Positions 3,087-10,848 of a DNA stretch of 14,474 bases are shown here, one piece after another. Source of the stretch: Candidatus Woesearchaeota archaeon (GTDB taxonomy: Archaea > Nanobdellota > Nanobdellia > Woesearchaeales > UBA525); NCBI GenBank assembly GCA_013331575.1, contig DUGD01000062.1, positions 401 to 14,874 of the forward strand. Reading direction: 5' to 3'. Below the pieces are notes generated by a model that saw only the letters and a program-made list of their open reading frames with translations, ran no database searches and was not told the DNA's origin. Position numbers and translations under genes: made by a program. Position 1 is the stretch's first letter. Each line of letters starts with the position of its first letter.

Positions 3087-3177
3087 GTGCTGCCTTGGCG
3101 GGGCCTTGGGTTCGAAGTTCGCGTTCCCATAACTCGGAAATCACATTGCGAACGACTGCACCCTCTCGCCGCAGCAC
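3087..3177 (+). ncRNA. Structured intergenic RNA-like element, copy A
   Basis: This is the shortest of three related elements (see 8126 and 10675). The closing helix is GTGCTGC (3087-3093) with GCAGCAC (3171-3177), 7 bp perfect. A CTT bulge follows, then GGCG (3097-3100) with CGCC (3167-3170). An internal hairpin pairs GTTCGC (3117-3122) with GCGAAC (3148-3153); the same hairpin sequence occurs in copy B. Relative to the other copies the outermost pairs change on both sides, keeping complementarity. It lies between mscL and the convergent gene ending at 3208. Strand is uncertain; the plus strand is chosen because of a TATA-like box at 3033. The conserved 3' tail of copies B and C is missing. 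Family not recognised. Confidence 0.6.
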
Positions 3178-3188
3178 AAAAGAGAAAC

Positions 3189-3204
3189 AGTAAAGAAAAA
3201 AAGG
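3189..3204 (-). terminator. T-rich terminator of the 3208-3630 gene
   Basis: The minus strand reads a T7 run followed by CTTTACTG, 4 nt after the stop codon at 3208-3210. Confidence 0.5.
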
Positions 3205-3207
3205 AGT

Positions 3208-3630
3208 TCAGAACAGCTTGAGCTCAAGACCAACAAAGGCTTTGCTCGTGGTGCTCTCCGCAAGCATACTCTCCATCGTACTCTCGACATCACCCGCGCT
3301 GCAGCGGCGCGCGTCATAAGTGGTCAGACGCTCGGTCTCCCCCATGCATGACGAGGAGAATTTACCACAGTGCTTCACCGCGACGAGATACGGTCTTGTC
3401 TCATCGTGCAAGAGCGCGCGGTCTGCATCGGAATAGGGTGCGCGTTTGCCGAGCTGCGCAGGCATCTCTCTCATGGCGAAATTGCGCGCGCTCGAAAGGT
3501 CGCCGAACGTGCACAACGCATCGTAAAGACGCATCTCACCATAGCTCTTCCAACGTTCCGCCTTGACATCTCGCTTGAAGAGTACGAAGTACTCACCGCC
3601 CTGTGCATTCTCCCTATATTCGCCGTACAT
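3208..3630 (-). CDS. Hypothetical protein, unrecognised (140 aa)
   Basis: I do not recognise this protein. It begins MYGEYRENAQGGEYFVLFKRD and ends VGLELKLF. It is soluble, with mixed charge, three Cys and no signal peptide or membrane segment. A longer frame opens at 3756, but the internal ATG at 3630 is preferred. It has the Shine-Dalgarno sequence GGAGG 6 nt upstream (3637-3641) and a TATA box at 3681-3690 that would place the transcript start near 3660, inside the longer frame. The gene appears monocistronic, with its own promoter and T-tract terminator. Confidence 0.68.
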   Translation of the reverse strand: MYGEYRENAQGGEYFVLFKRDVKAERWKSYGEMRLYDALCTFGDLSSARNFAMREMPAQLGKRAPYSDADRALLHDETRPYLVAVKHCGKFSSSCMGETERLTTYDARRCSAGDVESTMESMLAESTTSKAFVGLELKLF

Positions 3631-3636
3631 GTTGCT

Positions 3637-3641
3637 CCTCC
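3637..3641 (-). promoter_or_regulatory. Shine-Dalgarno site fixing the start at 3630
   Basis: The minus strand reads AAGGAGGAGCAAC then ATG. The 6-nt spacing is good and rules in the internal start. Confidence 0.65.
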
Positions 3642-3680
3642 TTCGTGCGCGAGCACGAACTACTTCAGGGAAGACATACC

Positions 3681-3690
3681 GATATAAATA
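3681..3690 (-). promoter_or_regulatory. TATA box of the 3208-3630 gene
   Basis: TATTTATATC on the minus strand, centred about 56 nt before the ATG, predicts a ~30-nt leader that contains the Shine-Dalgarno site. Confidence 0.55.
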
Positions 3691-3816
3691 GTTTGTGTAT
3701 TTACTACAATTACTCGCCGTTGAATACAAAAGCCGCATACAAATACTACCAAGCAAGACTACAACGAACGAGAACTACAAGTAGTAGACGAAAACTAAAT
3801 ATTCAGAAAAGAGAAC

Positions 3817-4083
3817 TTACAGCTTCTCGAACGCCGCGAGGAAATCCTTGTTGCGCTTCTGCAGTCGCGAGCTCGCACCGAGGAGCGCCTCTTTGGCATC
3901 GGCCGAGGATTCGACGACGAACTTCGGGACGCCGACAAGCGGGTGGTCGATATTGTACGCCGCGATCTTGACAGACTCGTCATTCCACAATTCCTGCTTG
4001 AGCGCGTTGCAGAACGTGTGATCCGCGCCGCGCAACTCGAAGACGATCCGGTGCTTCTTGCTCTCAAGGATGGTGATTTCCAT
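3817..4083 (-). CDS. rpoL: DNA-directed RNA polymerase subunit L (Rpo11), 88 aa
   Basis: Rpo11 is the archaeal counterpart of eukaryotic Rpb11 and of the alpha N-terminal domain. It pairs with Rpo3 to nucleate polymerase assembly. The sequence MEITILESKKHRIVFELRG, then DHTFCNALKQELWND, then YNIDHPLVGVPKFVVES, is the canonical Rpb11-type dimerisation fold: an E(L)RGEDHTxxNxLrxxL helix followed by the Y-xxxHPL-xxP strand pair. At 88 residues it is full length for an archaeal RpoL. A longer frame opens further upstream, but the TATA box centred at 4110 puts the transcript start almost exactly at the ATG at 4083, so the mRNA is probably leaderless. Divergent from the dolichol-kinase-like gene. 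Confidence 0.93.
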   Translation of the reverse strand: MEITILESKKHRIVFELRGADHTFCNALKQELWNDESVKIAAYNIDHPLVGVPKFVVESSADAKEALLGASSRLQKRNKDFLAAFEKL

Positions 4084-4103
4084 AGAGTGCGAGAACAAGG
4101 ACC

Positions 4104-4116
4104 CCTTTATAAATAT
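4104..4116 (-). promoter_or_regulatory. TATA box of rpoL
   Basis: The core TTTATAAA (4106-4113) is centred ~27 nt before the rpoL ATG, the archaeal spacing for a leaderless transcript. Confidence 0.7.
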
Positions 4117-4169
4117 TGTGGGCTCATCGACGAGGCGGAAAGAGCACCTGCAACAACACCATCGCAACC

Positions 4170-4180
4170 CTTATAAAAAG
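4170..4180 (+). promoter_or_regulatory. TATA box of the dolichol-kinase-like gene
   Basis: CTTATAAAAAG is centred ~26 nt before the ATG at 4200, again predicting a leaderless transcript and fixing the start choice. Confidence 0.7.
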
Positions 4181-4199
4181 ACCCTGCTGCTATACGAGC

Positions 4200-4817
4200 A
4201 TGACACCATTACGGTACAGAGGCAGCTTCAAACTCGAGATAGTGAGAAAATCGGTCCACGTGCTCGTCGGCATCCTCATCACACTCCTCTTCGGCGCGCG
4301 CATACTCGACCTGCCCGTCTTCTTCCTTCTCATCATGCTCTTTGCAGCAGTCATGCTCTACAACGCGAAAGCCGAACGCGAACTCCTCACGAAAATACTG
4401 AGCATCAATCGCGCCGACGCAAGCATCCCGGGGATAGACATCCTCTTCTACCTGCTCGGGTGCTTCATCGTGCTCTGGATATTCCCGGAGAATATCGCGA
4501 GCGCCGCGATCATGATCCTCGCGTTCGGCGATGCGGTCGCGCACCTCATCAGCCGCAGCTTCGGCGCGACCCAGACCGCACTGACGAAAACGACATATCT
4601 AGAAGGGACCATCCTGGGCGGCGCGGCAGGAGCGATAGCAGCATGGCTCTACGTACCACTACTCCCCGCCATAATCGCGAGCTCCGCGGCGATGATAGTC
4701 GAGGCAGGCGAGTTACGCATCGCCAACCACCACATCGATGACAATATCATCATCCCGATCGTCGCGGCAGTCACCCTGTGGATACTGCACATCATTTTCC
4801 CGACGATACTCATCTAG
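4200..4817 (+). CDS. Dolichol kinase / phytol kinase family membrane protein (205 aa)
   Basis: This belongs to the CTP-dependent polyprenol kinase superfamily (Sec59, Dgk1, phytol kinase). It is likely to phosphorylate an isoprenoid alcohol in the membrane. Supporting motifs are KLEIVRKSVHVLVG (R16, K17, H20), FGDAVAHLISRSFG (G110, D111), TKTTYLEGTILGG (K130, E135) and HIDDNIIIPIVAA (D180, D181, N182); the last is the family's DDN-xxxP signature. About seven hydrophobic segments are visible (near residues 20-35, 39-54, 81-97, 98-118, 134-152, 153-168, 184-203). In archaea such a protein would supply dolichyl phosphate for glycosylation or salvage prenols for lipid synthesis; which of these applies is inference. 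A longer frame from 4116 is rejected on promoter position. Confidence 0.88.
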   Translation: MTPLRYRGSFKLEIVRKSVHVLVGILITLLFGARILDLPVFFLLIMLFAAVMLYNAKAERELLTKILSINRADASIPGIDILFYLLGCFIVLWIFPENIASAAIMILAFGDAVAHLISRSFGATQTALTKTTYLEGTILGGAAGAIAAWLYVPLLPAIIASSAAMIVEAGELRIANHHIDDNIIIPIVAAVTLWILHIIFPTILI

Positions 4818-4872
4818 ACCACTGCAGAGCACACACATTAAATTCGTATGTAAGCACGCTGTGGAAGAAAGG

Positions 4873-4881
4873 AATATAAAC
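4873..4881 (+). promoter_or_regulatory. TATA box of the radical SAM gene
   Basis: AATATAAAC is centred ~25 nt before the ATG at 4902, so this transcript is probably leaderless too. Confidence 0.6.
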
Positions 4882-4901
4882 TAAGACACCACCCCACAGT
4901 A

Positions 4902-5468
4902 ATGACGTTTAGTCGCAAAGCAAGGATTCTCGTGACGAAAGCATGCCACAGACAGTGCGCTGGGTGTTGCAACACATACACCACCATCATGAAACACGCC
5001 AGTTACATAGAACGCATAGCGGATTTACCGACAGAACTGGATGAGATAATGATCACCGGAGGAGAGCCGATGCTTGTGCCGGAGAGAACACAACGACTCA
5101 GCACGCAAATAAGGAATAGATACCCTGCATCGAAACTCTATTTGTATTCCGCAGAATACAATGAAGCGATGAAGAACACCATACCAATCGTCGACGGTCT
5201 TCATTACACAGTACATGAAGGCGCAACGCTTCAAGACATAACATCACTCAACAGACTCCAAGAGTTGCTACAGTCTCATAAAGCACAATGGAGAGAAAAA
5301 TCATTTAGGTTATACATCGACAACCGCGTAATACTGCCCGTGACCATTAACCCCGATATCTGGAGCCAAGTAAACATATCCAAATGGTTCACAGAACAAG
5401 AGTTGCTGGACAAACAACCGACCGGGCTACCAGTCGGAGAATCGCTCTTTATCTATATCGGGACATAG
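4902..5468 (+). CDS. Short radical SAM protein (188 aa)
   Basis: A radical SAM enzyme uses a [4Fe-4S] cluster to cleave S-adenosylmethionine. The cluster motif CHRQCAGC is the canonical CX3CX2C (C15, C19, C22), followed by an additional C23. ITGGEPMLVP (residues 51-60) is the SAM-binding GGEP motif. The chain continues for only about 130 residues after that. The whole is roughly half to two-thirds the length of typical single-domain members, and no auxiliary cluster cysteines remain. It is therefore a minimal enzyme or a part-barrel. Codon use is rich in ATA and AGA compared with core genes, so acquisition or weak selection is possible. It converges on the CBS gene with a 24-bp gap. The substrate is unknown. 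Confidence 0.85.
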   Translation: MTFSRKARILVTKACHRQCAGCCNTYTTIMKHASYIERIADLPTELDEIMITGGEPMLVPERTQRLSTQIRNRYPASKLYLYSAEYNEAMKNTIPIVDGLHYTVHEGATLQDITSLNRLQELLQSHKAQWREKSFRLYIDNRVILPVTINPDIWSQVNISKWFTEQELLDKQPTGLPVGESLFIYIGT

Positions 5469-5492
5469 CAGCACCGCACAAGCGACAAAAGA

Positions 5493-5963
5493 TCACTCTT
5501 CTTCATCCAAGACCGGCTCCTGACCGAGCGGCTTGCGATGCTCCTCACGCAAACGATACGCATCGGCGAACGTATCGAAGAGTTGCGGTTGGACACGCAA
5601 GATGTCTTTCACCGTCACGAACCCAACGAACTTCCCATCATCGAGCACGGGAAGATGGCGGACATCAGAGTCTTTCATGATGAGAAGCGCATCCATGATA
5701 TCGGTGCCCGGCCCGACGGTTATCAGATCCTTCGTCATGATACGATGCACCGGAGTGTTACGCACGTCGTACCCTTCGAGAATGGCACGCTGGACAAAAT
5801 CAGTCTCCGTCACGATACCCACGAGCTCGTGACCGCGTTTGAGAACGACAGAACCGACATCGAACTTCTCCATGAGCGCCGCGACATCGCGGATAGTGAG
5901 TTCAGGCGACGCTACGACAGGCTTGATGGTCATCACATCCAGCACTCTCAAGCCCGAATCCAC
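5493..5963 (-). CDS. Two-CBS-domain protein (156 aa)
   Basis: A tandem CBS pair forms a Bateman module that binds adenosyl ligands (AMP, ATP, SAM) and is often a stand-alone regulator in archaea. First repeat: VLDVMTIKPVVASPELTIRDVAALMEK with GSVVLKRGHELVGIVTETDFV (about residues 8-60). Second repeat: VHRIMTKDLITVGPGTDIMDALLIM with VRHLPVLDDGKFVGFVTVKDIL (about 72-125). A charged C-terminal tail follows, ending LDEEE. No extra catalytic or DNA-binding domain is fused. The start is GTG at 5963, preceded by the minus-strand sequence GGTGAGG. The next in-frame ATG would cut into the first domain. The likely TATA box is at 5996-6005. Confidence 0.9.
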   Translation of the reverse strand: MDSGLRVLDVMTIKPVVASPELTIRDVAALMEKFDVGSVVLKRGHELVGIVTETDFVQRAILEGYDVRNTPVHRIMTKDLITVGPGTDIMDALLIMKDSDVRHLPVLDDGKFVGFVTVKDILRVQPQLFDTFADAYRLREEHRKPLGQEPVLDEEE

Positions 5964-5995
5964 ATCCTCACCGACGAGCAGGCAACGACGGATGG

Positions 5996-6005
5996 TTTAA
6001 AAAAG
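5996..6005 (-). promoter_or_regulatory. Probable TATA box of the CBS gene
   Basis: The minus strand reads CTTTTTTAAA, centred about 37 nt before the GTG start. Confidence 0.5.
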
Positions 6006-6015
6006 TATTGGCGCG

Positions 6016-6120
6016 AAAAAAACATAGATTACGACAATACAACGTCGTTTTGACAAAAAAACGGCATTCTGCGACCGACAAAACCTTGAGAACAACACAC
6101 CGCAGGATACAATATATAGA
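6016..6120 (-). other. Possible small transcription unit between the CBS and nucleotidyltransferase genes
   Basis: A TATA-like TCTATATATT (6111-6120, minus strand) has no protein gene at the expected distance. About 26 nt downstream would be a start near 6089. Downstream there are two T7 runs (6055-6061 and 6016-6022). Between the runs lies a hairpin, ACGAC (6031-6035) with GTCGT (6044-6048). This could be a ~35-70 nt RNA or a second, distal promoter for the CBS gene. The rest of the 234-bp gap shows nothing else beyond the terminator at 6151-6185. Confidence 0.22.
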
Positions 6121-6150
6121 ATCAACAGCCTCCTGAGCAACAAAAGAGAG

Positions 6151-6185
6151 AAACAAAAAAAGAATGCTGACCAGACCCGATCAGC
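6151..6185 (-). terminator. Hairpin plus T-tract terminator of the nucleotidyltransferase gene
   Basis: On the minus strand, GCTGA (6185-6181) pairs with TCAGC (6170-6166) across a 10-nt loop. A run with seven consecutive T follows. The hairpin begins 12 nt after the stop codon, the form of an intrinsic terminator. Confidence 0.6.
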
Positions 6186-6197
6186 GCACATACAGGA

Positions 6198-8042
6198 CTA
6201 GCCCATCAGTATCTCGACATTGTTGCCGAAGATCTTCTTGACATCCTCGAAGAGACGTTCATGCAAGAAGACGCGCGGCGGTATCTTGACGGTCGCAAGC
6301 GAATGCTCGAGCGCCTCGAGCGAACTCGCGGCCAAATTCACGATACGGCCTTCGTGCGTGAGGTCTCCTTTGAGAACCTCCTTCTCCTGCGCATCGAGGT
6401 CCATGATGATGAACGCGATGCTGTCAAGCAGCACGACCTCGCCGAAACGCTCGCCGTACTTCACGCGCACACGCGCGCGCTCAAGCTCCTTGCCGCGCTT
6501 GCGCTGCACATGCTCGATGACGTGCTTGAGGAACTCCCCAGCATCCTTATGGAGCTGCGAGACTTCGGCGCGCGAGAGTTTCCCCGCGTCGTAATCGCGC
6601 TTCGCCTTGTGCACCTCTTTGAGGATACGCAAGTACCGCTCGGGAATGATGCCCTTATGCACGATCTCTTTCTCGAAGAGCTTTACGCACTCGTCATCGC
6701 TCGCGCGCTCGATGCCTTCGAGCTTGAGGACATCACGGATGACCGTGATGACCGATTCGTAGATGTGGACCGTGCTCTCGAGCTCCTTGCGCTCCTCGAT
6801 GGCCTGGTACAGTTTAGAGAGCGCCTTGAGGTACTTCTCGGCCTTCTCGAGCATATCCTGGACCTCGTGGCCGGTGATGTTCTTCTTGATACCATACTCG
6901 ACATCCTTATGCGTCTTGAGCACGTGCTCCCAGAACACCACGTGCTCTTCGCTGAAGAGCTTCTCTTTCTTCACGAAAATCTCACGCATGACCTCCGCGA
7001 GCTCGCGGGGAGCGGGAGGCGGCAGGCCGTAGAGCATGAGCGCCGCCTGGCTAGGCGTGAGGACAGTATACCAGATGTCCTCTACCGCGATATCCTTGAG
7101 CTTGAAACGGATGCGATCGAGCATCTGGTCGCCCGTGGAACGGTAGAGGTCGATGGCTTCGCTCGAAGGGCGTATCTTGCCCATCTTAAGTAAGTGCTTC
7201 CACGGCATGAAGATACCACGGTCGTAGAGCGGTACGCCATCGCGCAGGAAGGTGAAGATGATAGGGTTGGCCTCCTTGATATTATCCCAGAAGTCGGTCA
7301 GGATATAGACTTGGATGGAGAGCTTGTTCTGCACACCCGTCATCTGACCAGCCTGGATCGCCATATCGTTGATGATACCGCGCAGCTTGTCCTTGAGTTC
7401 AGTGCGCGTCATCTTCTTGACATCGGTATCATCGATGACGATGTAGACGTCGATATCCGAGTTCGGATTCGCCTTGCCGCGCACCAGGCTTCCGCCGAGC
7501 ACGTAGCACGCGATGTACTTCTCGAACTTCTTGATGACCATAGACCTGTGGATCTCGCAGATCTTGATCGCGGCGAGCATACCGGTATCGTAGACAGGCG
7601 CGCTCACGGCGAGGACCTGCAAGAGATCGTACTTCGCATCGTAGCAGGATTGCCAGAGCTCCGTGATAAGGAGGACATCGATCGCCATCTGCTCATCCAC
7701 GTCCTTCGCGACTTGGCCCATGGCGGCAGTGAGCTTCTCATGCAGCTCGTCTTTGGACATCTTCGTGCTGTCTTGATCATCCACGAGGATGATGACATTG
7801 ACCTTATCCTTGCGCTCCCCTTCCTGTTCGGGCGGTGCGAGCGCGATACCCATGACGTACCCTTCGAATTTAGCGAGGAGTTTCTCCTTGAATTTGTCGA
7901 GCATGACTTTCATATTCTCCATACGCTCCTTGACTTCCGGAGACATCGGCGGAGGAACATCGGCAATCGACGTTTCCACACCAGCAGGTTCAGAAACAGC
8001 GGGCGCGGTGTTGCTCTCATGCGAAGAATTCTTTTTTGCCAT
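6198..8042 (-). CDS. Tandem nucleotidyltransferase-fold protein with HEPN-like helical region (614 aa)
   Basis: Residue numbers count from the ATG at 8042; a TTG codon just before it is less likely. After a ~30-residue disordered N-terminus comes a first nucleotidyltransferase-like domain (about 45-155) that lacks the GS and DxD motifs. A second one (about 165-275) carries VLGGSLVRGKANPNSDIDVYIVI, with GGS at 183-185 and SDID at 195-198. The two align through DKFKEKLLAKFEGY/IKKFEKYIACY, IAIDVLLITELW/LSIQVYILTDFW and APVYDTGML/VPLYDRGIF, so they are a duplication. After that, LTPSQAALMLYGLPPPAPREL (about 328-348) leads into a long alpha-helical, HEPN-like region and a small C-terminal alpha/beta end. 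Nucleotidyltransferase plus HEPN arrangements often act on nucleic acid or nucleotides; the substrate here is unknown. Transcribed alone from a TATA box at 8075-8082. Confidence 0.82.
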   Translation of the reverse strand: MAKKNSSHESNTAPAVSEPAGVETSIADVPPPMSPEVKERMENMKVMLDKFKEKLLAKFEGYVMGIALAPPEQEGERKDKVNVIILVDDQDSTKMSKDELHEKLTAAMGQVAKDVDEQMAIDVLLITELWQSCYDAKYDLLQVLAVSAPVYDTGMLAAIKICEIHRSMVIKKFEKYIACYVLGGSLVRGKANPNSDIDVYIVIDDTDVKKMTRTELKDKLRGIINDMAIQAGQMTGVQNKLSIQVYILTDFWDNIKEANPIIFTFLRDGVPLYDRGIFMPWKHLLKMGKIRPSSEAIDLYRSTGDQMLDRIRFKLKDIAVEDIWYTVLTPSQAALMLYGLPPPAPRELAEVMREIFVKKEKLFSEEHVVFWEHVLKTHKDVEYGIKKNITGHEVQDMLEKAEKYLKALSKLYQAIEERKELESTVHIYESVITVIRDVLKLEGIERASDDECVKLFEKEIVHKGIIPERYLRILKEVHKAKRDYDAGKLSRAEVSQLHKDAGEFLKHVIEHVQRKRGKELERARVRVKYGERFGEVVLLDSIAFIIMDLDAQEKEVLKGDLTHEGRIVNLAASSLEALEHSLATVKIPPRVFLHERLFEDVKKIFGNNVEILMG

Positions 8043-8074
8043 CAAAGATCACAGTTCTTCGGTGCCGACGGGAG

Positions 8075-8082
8075 TTTATAAA
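8075..8082 (-). promoter_or_regulatory. TATA box of the nucleotidyltransferase gene, possibly bidirectional
   Basis: TTTATAAA is centred ~37 nt before the ATG at 8042, giving an ~11-nt leader. The core is palindromic, so on the plus strand it would predict a start near 8105, just ahead of structured element copy B. Confidence 0.6.
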
Positions 8083-8125
8083 GGTTTGGGGATGAGAAAT
8101 AGAAGTAAGCAACACCGGAAACCCG

Positions 8126-8345
8126 ATCGCTGCCTTGGCGTGCATCCTGAGGGGTGAGTTCGCGAGACGAAATCGAAGCGACAATGCGAACCCCGAGGCA
8201 CGGAGGATTCGGACTGTTATCCGAATCCTTGTACCGGGATACCGCGTATCCTCGGCAATTCGAGAGTAGATGCGCCGCAGCGATAGGATGAGACGAAATA
8301 GTTGATGACTCACAACAAGAAGCAGTTGACAGTGAGCGATGCACT
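8126..8345 (+). ncRNA. Structured intergenic RNA-like element, copy B
   Basis: The closing helix is ATCGCTGC (8126-8133) with GCAGCGAT (8277-8284), 8 bp perfect. A CTT bulge follows, then GGCG (8137-8140) with CGCC (8273-8276). Inside are GTTCGC (8158-8163) with GCGAAC (8186-8191), extended by GGG (8152-8154) with CCC (8192-8194) past a TGA bulge. Also present are GGATTCGG (8205-8212) with CCGAATCC (8221-8228), and GGATAC (8237-8242) with GTATCC (8246-8251). The 3' tail from 8282 (GATAGGATGAGACG, then AATAGTTGA) is nearly identical to the tail of copy C and extends to about GATGCACTCGAGA near 8345. The element fills the gap between the nucleotidyltransferase promoter and the transglutaminase stop. 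No open frame in it looks coding. Strand and exact ends are uncertain; the family is not recognised. Confidence 0.65.
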
Positions 8346-8411
8346 CGAGATCAGGGATGTTAGCACACTCTTGCCGCGGCGGAAGTCAACAATTAAATGA
8401 CTACAGACAAC

Positions 8412-9719
8412 TCATCGCCGCGCGTGCCAGGTAGCATAGCTCGACCGTGCCTCACGCGCCTGCAGAAGTTCGAGCGCAGACCGCGCGAGACGAACGTATG
8501 ACTCCACCTCAGTCCGAGAGAACGAGCGATTGTTCAGGCTATCGGTCGCATAGCGGTCGTCATCGCCAAGCGATGCTGCAGGAATAATAGCAGAGAACAG
8601 AGTGCCATGCAATCGGCGAGCGTCGTTTGCGTAGATACTGAAGAAGGTCGGACGATACGACTCGTCGAAGAACACCGTTGTGCGCCGATACGCGGAATGA
8701 GTATCCTGTTGCTCCACGGTGACCTGCCAATGACGCTTCTCCAAGGAATATCTCGCATCCATATCAGTGATAACACTCAAACGGTTATTGGTTGTATCAC
8801 GCGATGGTATAAGCGCATCATCAATAGACAATGCCATCCCATCAGGGTACTGCCGTTTTGAATAGGTGCCGTAATCGAGCTTTTCGCTCTCGAACGCGAC
8901 GCCGATCTCGCGCTGCAAGTCGACGTTATTACGGGTAGTCGTCTGAAGCGTTATCTGCGGGCCTGCCGCGAGCAATCTATCATCGAACGCGACGTTTCGC
9001 ACTGTTGCCTTGGTCCACAAGTGCTGTAGCGCGACTTCGGATGCGACGGCATCGATAGTCGAGTACACCGGCATCGTGAAATCGCCGTTGCTGATGCCCG
9101 CGGTGCCATACTTGTTCGTCGTGCGGTCACGGTACACCGCGATGATATGGCCATCGCCCTGCTCTGGCATGAGCGCGAGACCGGAGACATCATAACCGAG
9201 ATTGCGTAATAGACCGGCCATCAGCACGAATCCCTCCTTGCAGTTTCCGGCTCGTTTCTCCAAGATGGCGGGGACGCGGTTGTACAGATTGTCGCTTCCG
9301 CGACCAAAGACGAGCGAAGAACGACGCACATAATCGATGTTGCGGCTCACCCATTGCTGTGCCTGCTCTGGAGAGCCGATCTCGCCAAGAATCGCCTCCA
9401 ACCCCTTTGATCGAACAGATATTCCGACAGGACGCTGCACCGGTGCATCAGAGTATCGCGGTACAGTTGAGTACACCCGATGTTCAGGCGACGTCGGAAC
9501 GGGAGTGCGCGTTGGCGCGACCTCACGCTTCACAATGATAGGTACAGTAGCGATAGGCACCGTAGCGATGGCTGGAGTACGGGCGGCGACAGGTGTTGAG
9601 CCGGTAGGCGTTGGAGCAACGTAGCCAGTGGCCCGCAACGGCCTCTTCGTCTGCGCCATCATCGGCGTCGTGGCAAGAGTGGCTGCGAGTACCGCTGCCG
9701 AAAGGTTTCTGAAACGCAT
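8412..9719 (-). CDS. Secreted transglutaminase-like cysteine peptidase family protein (435 aa)
   Basis: An N-terminal signal peptide is visible: MRFRN, then a hydrophobic Ala/Leu/Thr stretch to about residue 22 with a likely cleavage at MMAQ. A Pro/Thr/Val-rich linker follows (about 25-95) containing ATVPI twice in a row and many TP pairs. The catalytic core has the transglutaminase-like Cys in AGNCKEGFVLMAGLLRNLG (C160), the His in GDGHIIAVYRD (H191) and an acidic residue in ISNGDF (D213), the Cys-His-Asp order of the fold. About 220 further residues of beta-rich sequence (YSLEKRHWQVTVEQQD, RRTTVFFDESY) have no recognised domain. It is probably extracellular or cell-surface tethered, cleaving or crosslinking peptides. 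The ATG at 9719 fits a TATA-like box near 9745. The gene is divergent from L15e. Confidence 0.75.
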   Translation of the reverse strand: MRFRNLSAAVLAATLATTPMMAQTKRPLRATGYVAPTPTGSTPVAARTPAIATVPIATVPIIVKREVAPTRTPVPTSPEHRVYSTVPRYSDAPVQRPVGISVRSKGLEAILGEIGSPEQAQQWVSRNIDYVRRSSLVFGRGSDNLYNRVPAILEKRAGNCKEGFVLMAGLLRNLGYDVSGLALMPEQGDGHIIAVYRDRTTNKYGTAGISNGDFTMPVYSTIDAVASEVALQHLWTKATVRNVAFDDRLLAAGPQITLQTTTRNNVDLQREIGVAFESEKLDYGTYSKRQYPDGMALSIDDALIPSRDTTNNRLSVITDMDARYSLEKRHWQVTVEQQDTHSAYRRTTVFFDESYRPTFFSIYANDARRLHGTLFSAIIPAASLGDDDRYATDSLNNRSFSRTEVESYVRLARSALELLQAREARSSYATWHARR

Positions 9720-9738
9720 AGTCTCAGGAATCCGGATG

Positions 9739-9751
9739 ATTTGTTAAAGTT
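9739..9751 (-). promoter_or_regulatory. Weak TATA-like box of the transglutaminase gene
   Basis: The minus strand reads AACTTTAACAAAT, centred ~26 nt before the ATG at 9719. The spacing is right but the match is weak. Confidence 0.35.
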
Positions 9752-9753
9752 GA

Positions 9754-9909
9754 TGGTGTGCAAAAAGAGGCCGCCTTGGAGTAAACCCACGACGCGAGTA
9801 TTTTCTGAAGGAAAATCTTGCGAGCGGCGTGATAATCCTGCGAGGGACCGAGCAGTACGAACTCCGCGGCGAGAGTACAGTCGTCGTCATCGAAGGAATA
9901 CCTTTATAA
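9754..9909 (+). pseudogene. Coding-like open frame without a start codon (51 codons), possible gene remnant
   Basis: This frame follows a TGA at 9751-9753 and runs to TAA at 9907-9909. It encodes a protein-like stretch including REYFLKENLASGVIILRG, EQYELRGE and STVVVIEGIPL. The amphipathic strand pattern and G/C-rich third positions resemble real genes nearby. There is no ATG or TTG; the only GTG (9829) would leave 26 residues. The TAA overlaps the L15e TATA box. It may be the truncated 3' end of a lost gene, a gene with an unusual start, or chance. I do not recognise the sequence. Confidence 0.3.
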
Positions 9910-9910
9910 A
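9901..9910 (+). promoter_or_regulatory. TATA box of L15e
   Basis: CCTTTATAAA predicts a start near 9932, leaving a leader of about 77 nt, the longest leader of any protein gene in the window. Confidence 0.6.
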
Positions 9911-9941
9911 CCATCGGCGGTTTCTTCGTCATATACCAGAG

Positions 9942-9995
9942 ATGTGGCGGATTGCTTCGCTGAATCTGGCCGGAAATATGTTCCGGAGAAAATAA
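9942..9995 (+). CDS. Possible 17-codon upstream ORF in the L15e leader
   Basis: An ATG about 10 nt from the predicted transcript start opens MWRIASLNLAGNMFRRK and stops with TAA two nt before the L15e Shine-Dalgarno site. It overlaps the leader hairpin at 9970-9986. The near-leaderless position and the tight coupling to the ribosome-binding site make translation possible. It has no Shine-Dalgarno site of its own and may be chance. Confidence 0.25.
   Translation: MWRIASLNLAGNMFRRK
9970..9986 (+). promoter_or_regulatory. Perfect hairpin in the L15e leader
   Basis: CCGGAA (9970-9975) pairs with TTCCGG (9981-9986) around a 5-nt loop. It ends 10 nt before the Shine-Dalgarno GGAGG (9997-10001), a position where it could modulate translation of the ribosomal protein. 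Confidence 0.45.
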
Positions 9996-10008
9996 CGGAG
10001 GCACCAAC

Positions 10009-10572
10009 ATGGGATATCTCAAATACGTCAAGCAAGCTTTCAACGCTCCTTCTGAAGAGATTAAAGCGGTCCAGCGCGAGCGCTTACTCGAGATGCGCCG
10101 CGAGCCGGTCGTCCACCGCATCGAGCGCCCCACGCGCATCGATCGCGCGCGCAGCTTAGGCTACAAGGCAAAGCCCGGTGTTCTCATCGCACGTGTGCGC
10201 GTCCGCCGCGGTAAGCACGTCCGCCCCGATATCAAGGGCGGCCGCAGACCTTCGCGATTCCACCAGGACAAGAACCTGCACAAGAACTACCAGCAGATAG
10301 CTGAGGAGCGCGCAGCGACGAACTACCTCAACTGCGAAGTCTTAGGCAGCTACCAGGCGGGCCAAGACGGTTACTCATACTGGTTCGAGGTCATCCTCGT
10401 CGATCGATCGCACCCCGTTGTGCTTGCTGACAAGCGTCTCATCGGCATCGCAGCCCAGACGGGCCGCGTCTTCCGCGGAGTCACATCGGCAGGTCGCCGT
10501 GGCCGTGGTCTGCGCAGCAAGGGACAAGGTGCCGAGAAGGTGCGCCCGAGCCGCCAGGCGAACGGATACTAG
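10009..10572 (+). CDS. rpl15e: 50S ribosomal protein L15e (187 aa)
   Basis: L15e is an archaeal/eukaryotic large-subunit ribosomal protein with no bacterial homologue. It begins MGYLKYVKQAFNAPSEE and continues with RPTRIDRARSLGYKAKPGVLIARVRVRRGK, then GRRPSRFHQDKNLHKNYQQIAEERAA, LNCEVLGSYQAGQDGYSYWFEVILVDRSHP, and a basic Gly/Arg-rich C-terminus (RRGRGLRSKGQGAEKVRPS). This matches the family over its full length. The start is backed by GGAGG at 9997-10001, 7 nt upstream. It stands alone here, not in a ribosomal operon, and its long leader with hairpin and uORF suggests its own control. A strong T-tract follows. Confidence 0.97.
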   Translation: MGYLKYVKQAFNAPSEEIKAVQRERLLEMRREPVVHRIERPTRIDRARSLGYKAKPGVLIARVRVRRGKHVRPDIKGGRRPSRFHQDKNLHKNYQQIAEERAATNYLNCEVLGSYQAGQDGYSYWFEVILVDRSHPVVLADKRLIGIAAQTGRVFRGVTSAGRRGRGLRSKGQGAEKVRPSRQANGY

Positions 10573-10576
10573 ACAG

Positions 10577-10612
10577 AGTTTTTCTTTCTTTTTTTCATAG
10601 TTTTTCTTATCA
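10577..10612 (+). terminator. T-rich terminator after L15e
   Basis: Repeated T runs (up to 7) start 7 nt after the stop codon, with no clear hairpin. Confidence 0.6.
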
Positions 10613-10674
10613 TTCAAAAACTGCTAGAGAGATCGCTACGCAATCAGCGTCGTCAGTTCAGCAACAGTACGACT

Positions 10675-10848
10675 CGCTGCCTTGGCGTGCAGTCTGAGGG
10701 CGGAGCGTGGCTAGGCAGCAGCCGACGCCACCATGCGACGCCCGAAACAACCCTCAAGTATATCCGCCGCAGCGATAGGATTAGACGCAATAGTTGACTA
10801 CAGACGAGAAGGTGTAGTTGACGACTACACAACTAACGATGCAGCGAG
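10675..10848 (+). ncRNA. Structured intergenic RNA-like element, copy C
   Basis: The closing helix is CGCTGC (10675-10680) with GCAGCG (10769-10774). A CTT bulge follows, then GGCG (10684-10687) with CGCC (10765-10768). Next inside, TGAGGG (10695-10700) pairs with CCCTCA (10751-10756), and an irregular GC-rich arm is closed by GTGGC with GCCAC. The 3' tail (GATAGGATTAGACG, then AATAGTTGA) matches copy B, and a 6-bp hairpin GTGTAG (10812-10817) with CTACAC (10825-10830) follows. Near the end, GCAGCGAG (10841-10848) is perfectly complementary to CTCGCTGC (10673-10680 region), offering an alternative partner for the 5' strand. The inner arms share little sequence with copy B although the frame is conserved. 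It lies between L15e and the convergent DUF483-like gene. Confidence 0.63.

Follow-up and report, generated by a model that had tools for sequence, protein, structure and literature searches.

A structure-conserved family of dispersed intergenic repeats in Woesearchaeales

Four copies of a folded element lie in a 14,474-nt stretch of DNA from Candidatus Woesearchaeota archaeon (contig DUGD01000062.1, positions 401–14,874), here called the window. The element is a new, strongly structure-conserved family of dispersed intergenic repeats. Its canonical frame consists of CTGC, CTT and GGCG on the left and CGCC and GCAG on the right, with a variable interior between them. Copies are roughly 75–165 nt in length, with a median of 110 nt including 5-nt flanks, and all four in the window are on the plus strand (Table 1).

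Copies in the window

A sequence-only reading of the window had named copies 1, 2 and 3. The frame is present at all three places, and the compensating outer pairs are found in the sequence as described. The extent given for copy 1 stands, but the right ends placed at 8345 and 10848 both lie beyond the closing helix, and the count was one short, as a covariance model adds copy 4. Each copy was also said to lie shortly beyond the stop of a gene on the minus strand. For those three this is true, but it is no general rule: 59 of 113 copies in the window's own genome (G000) have a minus-strand gene as their downstream neighbour, and copy 4 sits between two gene starts. The multi-copy family suspected from the three copies is confirmed by covariance-model searches across this genome and its relatives. 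The earlier observation is real, and larger in scale than first described.

Table 1. Copies of the element in the window and parts of copy 3
Feature	Position	Strand	Description
Copy 1	3087–3177	+	short GGGGC-type interior; handle GTGCTGC-CTT-GGCG / CGCC-GCAGCAC
Copy 2	8126–8284	+	type A, additional 3′-side hairpins; outer helix ATCGCTGC / GCAGCGAT
Copy 4	9770–9870	+	type A; handle GCCGC-CTT-GGAG / CTCC-GCGGC; overlooked by the sequence-only reading
Copy 3	10675–10774	+	canonical type A
CTT bulge of copy 3	10681–10683	+	each letter kept in 121–122 of 123 copies
Inner helix P2 of copy 3	10698–10743	+	GGGCG 10698–10702 pairs with CGCCC 10739–10743

Three covariance models were used: R1, built from 16 canonical copies (alignment A2); R2, built from alignment A5; and R3, made for a second interior type, subtype B. 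Copy 3 is the top R1 match of the genome at 102 bits, being an R1 seed that matches by construction, and it scores 98.5 bits with R2; its P2 region encloses a symmetric GA/GA internal loop as well as another hairpin. Both R1 and R2 match copy 2 (8124–8286; 70.2 bits with R2) and copy 4 (9765–9875; 69.1 bits with R2), and the handle of copy 4 is changed on both sides relative to the canonical frame in a compensatory manner. Copy 1 is not among the R1 matches at E up to 0.001 and reaches 26.2 bits with R2 when filters are off. A stretch nearly identical to its interior is also found at locus L026. No tRNA was found in the window.

Copy number, fold and interior types

The genome of the window has 1,625,642 bases in 99 contigs and a completeness of 74.6%. 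The 11-mer CTGCCTTGGCG occurs in it 44 times, compared with 2 times for the reversed control, and in 39 of the 44 occurrences CGCCGC[AT]G follows within 350 nt; the shared frame is far beyond chance. At E up to 0.1, R1 lists 119 places (4 of them weaker than E 0.01), or about one per 14 kb in 1.63 Mb, and the same contigs carry them on either strand. Eleven places score under 31 bits, and three of these are exact-frame copies. R3 lists 22 places of at least 70 bits, 21 of them new relative to the R1 list, and eight exact-frame copies are missing from the 119. When the eight weak R1 places that have no exact frame are left out, and the 21 R3-only places and the eight exact-frame copies are added, the total is approximately 140 copies or more, with 150 candidates scored per genome.

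For analysis of the fold, 97 stretches of this genome (467,887 bases) were picked around matches, and R1 gives 124 matches in them at E up to 0.001, of which 123 are distinct. The fold consists of an outer helix, the unpaired CTT, a helix of 3–4 bp, and then one of several inner folds. Standard pairs are found in 95.7% of 2541 cells (22 pairs, 123 copies), as against 72.3% when shuffled and 30–53% when slid by one to three columns, and there are 574 cells with double-sided changes as against 167 shuffled; it should be pointed out that this alignment is fitted to R1, which favours pairing. Alignment A2 was made with MAFFT and is not model-fitted, with its consensus structure drawn from A2 itself, and shows 94.6% paired cells (79.2% shuffled, 29–49% slid) and 51 double changes (15 shuffled). 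The suggestion that structure is maintained via compensatory change is supported. One pair, 17–253, fails in 27 of 118 cells.

In this genome the handle is nearly invariant, its left side being GC-CTT-GG and its right side CC-GC. The P2 helix is variable in sequence and is flanked by two GA/GA symmetric loops, whose positions, where counted, are kept in 100–108 of 123 copies; P2/P3 with GA/GA loops is the canonical interior, type A. Subtype B has the arrangement CAGGA-arm-GATTNNTGCA-arm-GACG with fully variable arms. Its alignment (A6, 12 sequences) is 97.2% paired, with 73 double changes versus 21, and the GA/GA positions can become A-T pairs. A short GGGGC interior is found in window copy 1, L019 and L026, and further interior types also occur. 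These different interiors sit interchangeably behind one handle, and the interior may be free to vary provided that the fold stays closed.

Many long copies contain extra perfect hairpins, and the copy at L035 consists of the L015/L017 subfamily sequence plus about 100 nt of inserted hairpins. Short perfect hairpins of varying sequence are seen inside copies at window positions 8190–8260, at L013, L018, L021, L031, L035 and L043, and at L279:1501–1638. They look as though the loops of the copies were the target of a second family of hairpins.

The strand that folds can be approached through mismatches. On the plus strand, G.U exceeds A.C by 53 to 21 among 2312 cells in the window's genome (pair 17–253 and a conserved U.G pair left out), and by 23 to 10 in 46 copies from two relatives, G002 and G003 (the conserved U.G pair left out). 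Therefore the plus strand seems to be the folding one, given that a strand-biased mutation spectrum could mimic the signal. Wobble pairs are rarer than in tRNAs, 53 of 2312 (2.3%) versus 21 of 280 (7.5%), the reference being 13 tRNAs from the G000 and G002 stretches located by a tRNA finder that itself favours pairs. This scarcity leans towards a DNA fold rather than an RNA, without deciding between them. The initial impression that the element matches no known archaeal RNA has held: Rfam gives no match in the window at the gathering level, and none for 16 sources at E up to 5.

Distribution, multiplication and gene context

The distribution is patchy and copy number is very uneven. At E up to 0.001, R2 has matches in seven of the nine genomes of the family, the window's genome included: 127 in G000, 60 in G002, 56 in G006, 39 in G003, 30 in G008, 20 in G004 and 4 in G007. 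Neither R2 nor R3 matches anything in G001, of the same genus and 74% complete, or in G005, 86% complete. Within one genus the number of copies thus spans 0 to 127. Across 193 genomes of the order, with stricter filters and no more than 19 scored candidates in each genome, R2 matches 6, two of them outside the family. R3 matches 10 of 371 genomes of the phylum (at most 11 candidates scored), all from the same order and from six families. With up to 150 candidates scored, the R3 matches at E up to 1e-4 number 70 in G000, 69 in G169, 51 in G003, 46 in G006, 38 in G038, 14 in G008, 11 in G002, 2 each in G004 and G027, and 1 each in G007, G178 and G188. In type A carriers these numbers partly re-count type A; of the 43 R3 matches in the G000 stretches, many of the weaker ones coincide with type A places.

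Matches in G027, G087 and G178, read letter by letter, have the loop CGATT[CT]ATGCAG with different arms. The handle changes in step, to GC-CTT-GA/TC-GC in G027 and to AG-CTT-GA/TC-CT in G087. In one copy from G159 (L279) the conserved loop is split by an inserted hairpin; the second G159 match and the G004 match are weak (34–36 bits). The one copy in G178, a genome of another family that is 96% complete, is of subtype B and is located at L278:1501–1597 in a convergent gap, flanked by putative open reading frames whose translations, by reading, resemble methionine aminopeptidase and histidyl-tRNA synthetase.

A scan of genome contigs with the frame pattern gives 70 stretches. Twenty-three are in the archaeal metagenome-assembled genomes UBA525, t2.113 and PL23a_bin.69, and the remaining 47 are titled bacterial, of which the 16 scored with R2 have 14–28 bits. 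Viral contigs have seven matches to the frame pattern, with R2 scores of 22–31 bits, and none to the subtype B pattern. These viral and bacterial matches are taken as chance. Matches under about 31 bits are unsafe alone because sequences chosen by frame reach E 6.6e-5 with R2. Among plasmids, copy 3 has no match at E 1e-5.

Copies have multiplied within the window's genome. Sets of copies that are 86–93% alike occupy different flanks; three pairs matching at 100% were dropped, being neighbouring copies whose extracted segments overlap the same DNA. In many pairs the likeness stops at the outer helix, and in others it extends 14–42 nt further upstream, where it sometimes belongs to a longer inverted repeat. 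A longer repeat with the left part [CT]CGTGCTT[CT]AGCTCGA was looked at in 14 places, 11 of which enclose a copy of type A or subtype B (L189:2470–2660, L017:1040–1220, L182:5630–5810, L292, L296 and others), and several end in a hairpin like CCCCGCCCTTTAGGGCGGGGTTATTCATT. Its right end is reminiscent of the ends of IS200/IS605-TnpB elements; a regular expression found no TnpB-like motifs in the fetched stretches.

With a crude gene finder of our own, 119 of the 123 copies do not fall within predicted genes. For 113 copies, the strands of the upstream and downstream neighbours relative to the element are (+,+) in 42, (+,−) in 34, (−,−) in 25 and (−,+) in 12. The last are divergent gaps, which hold only these 12 copies, yet account for 66 of the 245 gaps that are 120 nt or longer. 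A sense gene lies upstream of 76 copies and is lacking at 37, and T-runs separate sense gene and element in 20 of 71 cases. With a simple, nearly symmetric set of TATA-like hexamers, the 123 copies show no promoter signal of their own above the random intergenic level: hexamers are found 15–60 nt upstream in 14 of 123, on the opposite side in 19 of 123, in 49 of 454 random intergenic positions and in 73 of 207 gene upstream regions. All 14 cases are among the 40 copies with no upstream sense gene, where the promoter of the neighbour may lie.

No target-site duplication was detected at the 123 copies, the lengths of direct repeats at the edges being like those of shuffled flanks. Neither edge has conserved bases in the 5-nt flanks and their composition, apart from A-richness just downstream. 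The sequence TAGTTGAC is present within 200 nt downstream in 16 of 123 copies, too rarely to belong to the unit. Downstream of some copies there are repeats of GTAGTTGAC / GTAGTTGACGACTAC, whose spacers resemble GACGAGAAGGA (window 10786–10832 and 8300–8340; L030, L020 and others).

Mobile element or structured RNA

The element has properties in common with several known systems. Like repetitive extragenic palindromic sequences (REP) and bacterial interspersed mosaic elements (BIME), it is high in copy number, extragenic and palindromic, and has alternative complementary residues in its stems. In REP, unpaired GA residues can become paired AA/TT, as described in PMC3733652, and the GA/GA to A-T change of subtype B resembles this. 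Unlike REP and BIME, the element is longer and has a two-level fold in place of a single short stem. Its edges have no terminal tetranucleotide tag such as the GTAG or CGTC at the end of REP stems, and in most carriers no Y1/RAYT (REP-associated tyrosine transposase) gene was found. With integron attC sites it shares a variable interior and folding of a single strand, DNA and RNA being undistinguished here, and structure-specific recognition, a feature of attC, is proposed for the element too. attC sites have extrahelical bases. Archaeal attC sites are reported to fold as single strands (PMC9668308). Unlike attC, the element is dispersed on both strands and not in cassette arrays of one orientation, though all four in the window lie on one strand, and there is no surplus of tyrosine recombinase in G000, G003, G008 or G169. 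Presumably its handle also differs in sequence from the attC R and L boxes.

Miniature inverted-repeat transposable elements (MITEs) are likewise non-coding, intergenic and variable in copy number, with terminal inverted repeats (PMC10969869). Unlike MITEs, the present family shows no target-site duplication, its sequences have diverged with pairing retained, and no parent insertion sequence was identified. It has covarying helices in common with archaeal structured RNAs (tRNA, C/D, H/ACA, RNase P and signal recognition particle RNA), from which it differs in the absence of an Rfam match and of a promoter signal. In the literature searched, which includes passages of PMC12306157, PMC9668308, PMC3733652 and PMC10969869, no published description of these repeats was found.

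The alternatives first offered were a new non-coding RNA class or a structured interspersed repeat. The RNA class is not established; the interspersed repeat fits better, because of the lack of a promoter signal, the scarce wobble pairs, the two copy-free family members and the multiplication. The reading tentatively preferred, with a chance not quite even, is that of a REP/attC-like dispersed element that is recognised by the folded shape of one strand and that some enzyme spreads. Its mode of working would be most like that of REP or an attC site, with membership in neither established. In the folded single strand, a protein would recognise the handle around the CTT bulge, and the same protein may copy or move the unit. 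Any interior that closes the fold would be tolerated, and copies landing in divergent promoter gaps would mostly be lost. Spread is suggested because copy number is uneven, copies have multiplied, a promoter signal is absent and two family members have no copies. Recognition of the folded plus strand is suggested because the bulge, the GA loops and the loop sequence are conserved and changes are compensatory.

A number of observations weigh against such a spreading element, among them the persistence of a copy at one locus. G000 and G002 have diverged to a median identity of 58% (62 best-matching genes), and 33 locus pairs have at least one matched gene, with matching gaps judged by eye. In six pairs the element is in the matching gap; in the other 27 it is in a different gap or this cannot be told. 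The pair L030/L207, with both neighbours orthologous and in the same orientation, keeps the element with compensatory changes (C-G to T-A in P1, A-T to G-C in P2). The two copies are mutual best matches among 46 and 124 copies, and score 49 where shuffled sequences reach at most 16.5, while the upstream flank is marginal (19.5; shuffled mean 12.8, maximum 21) and the downstream flank is not conserved (13.0 versus 12.3). At least one copy is therefore old and held in shape in place; most are not visibly shared. At L037/L214, with one flank matched, a 3′ hairpin is shared, and the copies rank first of 46 one way and sixth of 124 the other way. The four same-gap pairs L194/L230, L027/L236, L191/L234 and L183/L224 (the last in opposite orientation) show no special likeness. 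In addition, no empty site was seen, and GC skew shows no bias with the strand of the element (58 of 123 positive). Several genomes from other families have just one or two copies that share the loop, in a gene-like manner, and the sense bias downstream of genes, 42 (+,+) versus 25 (−,−), could mean transcription.

A driving enzyme is also missing among the families searched, and this counts on the same side. The Y1 transposase (PF01797) was not found in G000–G005 or G007, of which G000 is about 75% and G002 95% complete. There is one gene each in G006 and G008 (56 and 30 R2 matches), and the PF01797-free carriers G000, G002, G003 and G004 have 127, 60, 39 and 20. Reverse transcriptase (PF00078) occurs in 4 of 19 genomes, with none found in G000, G002 or G003; its genes are at L312–L315, in G038, G169, G007 and G006. 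PF00589 is represented by one gene each in G000, G003, G008 and G169, and also in the copy-free G001. None of these three candidates, Y1 transposase, reverse transcriptase or tyrosine recombinase, tracks the presence of the element, and no common mobilising enzyme was found among PF01797, PF00078 and PF00589, other enzyme families not having been searched.

The main rival is a transcribed structured RNA family, with a shared CUU-bulged, protein-binding handle and variable domains, gained and lost like a gene family, which is a real possibility albeit a minority one. Such RNAs would come from promoters that were not seen, or be carried at the 3′ ends of transcripts from neighbouring genes. The compensatory change across 123 copies is in keeping with this reading, as are the GATTNNTGCA loop kept in other families with arms, and even the handle, changing in step, the genomes of other families with just one or two copies, the 76 copies downstream of a sense gene, an element better conserved than its flanks at one orthologous locus, and the excess of G.U over A.C. 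The missing promoter signal speaks against it, together with the T-runs between sense gene and element, the 37 copies that have no upstream sense gene, the rarity of wobble pairs, the multiplication of near-alike copies, and the lack of any match in two family members that are 74% and 86% complete. A bolder form would be a new archaeal class of RNAs built as handle plus cargo, with about 140 paralogues in a 1.6-Mb genome, a dedicated protein on the CUU-bulged base helix, unrelated inner folds plugged in, and amplification afresh in each lineage of one order; this is unlikely, if not strikingly so.

Two further explanations concern the hairpins as such. Template switching or arm-to-arm gene conversion would give paired changes free, without selection, and the arms are indeed nearly always perfectly complementary, with few wobbles or other mismatches, and extra perfect hairpins occur inside many copies, once within a conserved loop (L279). 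But arm correction would erase the CTT bulge and the GA/GA positions, which persist, and G.U lies above A.C on one strand, which strand-biased mutation could also yield; maintenance by mutation appears improbable. It is very improbable that the element is a relaxed bulge–helix–loop substrate of the splicing endonuclease, in which the base helix is cut and the interior released and circularised. Nearly all copies have a 3-nt bulge beside a helix of about 4 bp, and archaea are known to have bulge–helix–bulge motifs and circular RNAs. Unlike the true substrate, which has two 3-nt bulges on opposite strands of a 4-bp helix, the element has one bulge and an open loop on the inner side. In 27 of 118 cells the fourth pair does not form, and there is no promoter signal. 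The splicing endonuclease, moreover, is not known to need a strict CTT sequence.

To our knowledge, few dispersed repeats show such strong compensatory evolution among the copies of one genome. If mobile, the REP/attC-like element points to a new enzyme that reads a folded strand, in an archaeon where searches found no Y1 transposase and gave no sign of surplus integrase. If it is an RNA, the paralogous family would be a very large one for a small archaeal genome. The window with its four copies and the models make the mobile-DNA and RNA readings both testable.

Apart from the repeat family, a tRNA-Trp(CCA) whose 53-nt intron lies at position 37/38 was observed at L012:639–766.

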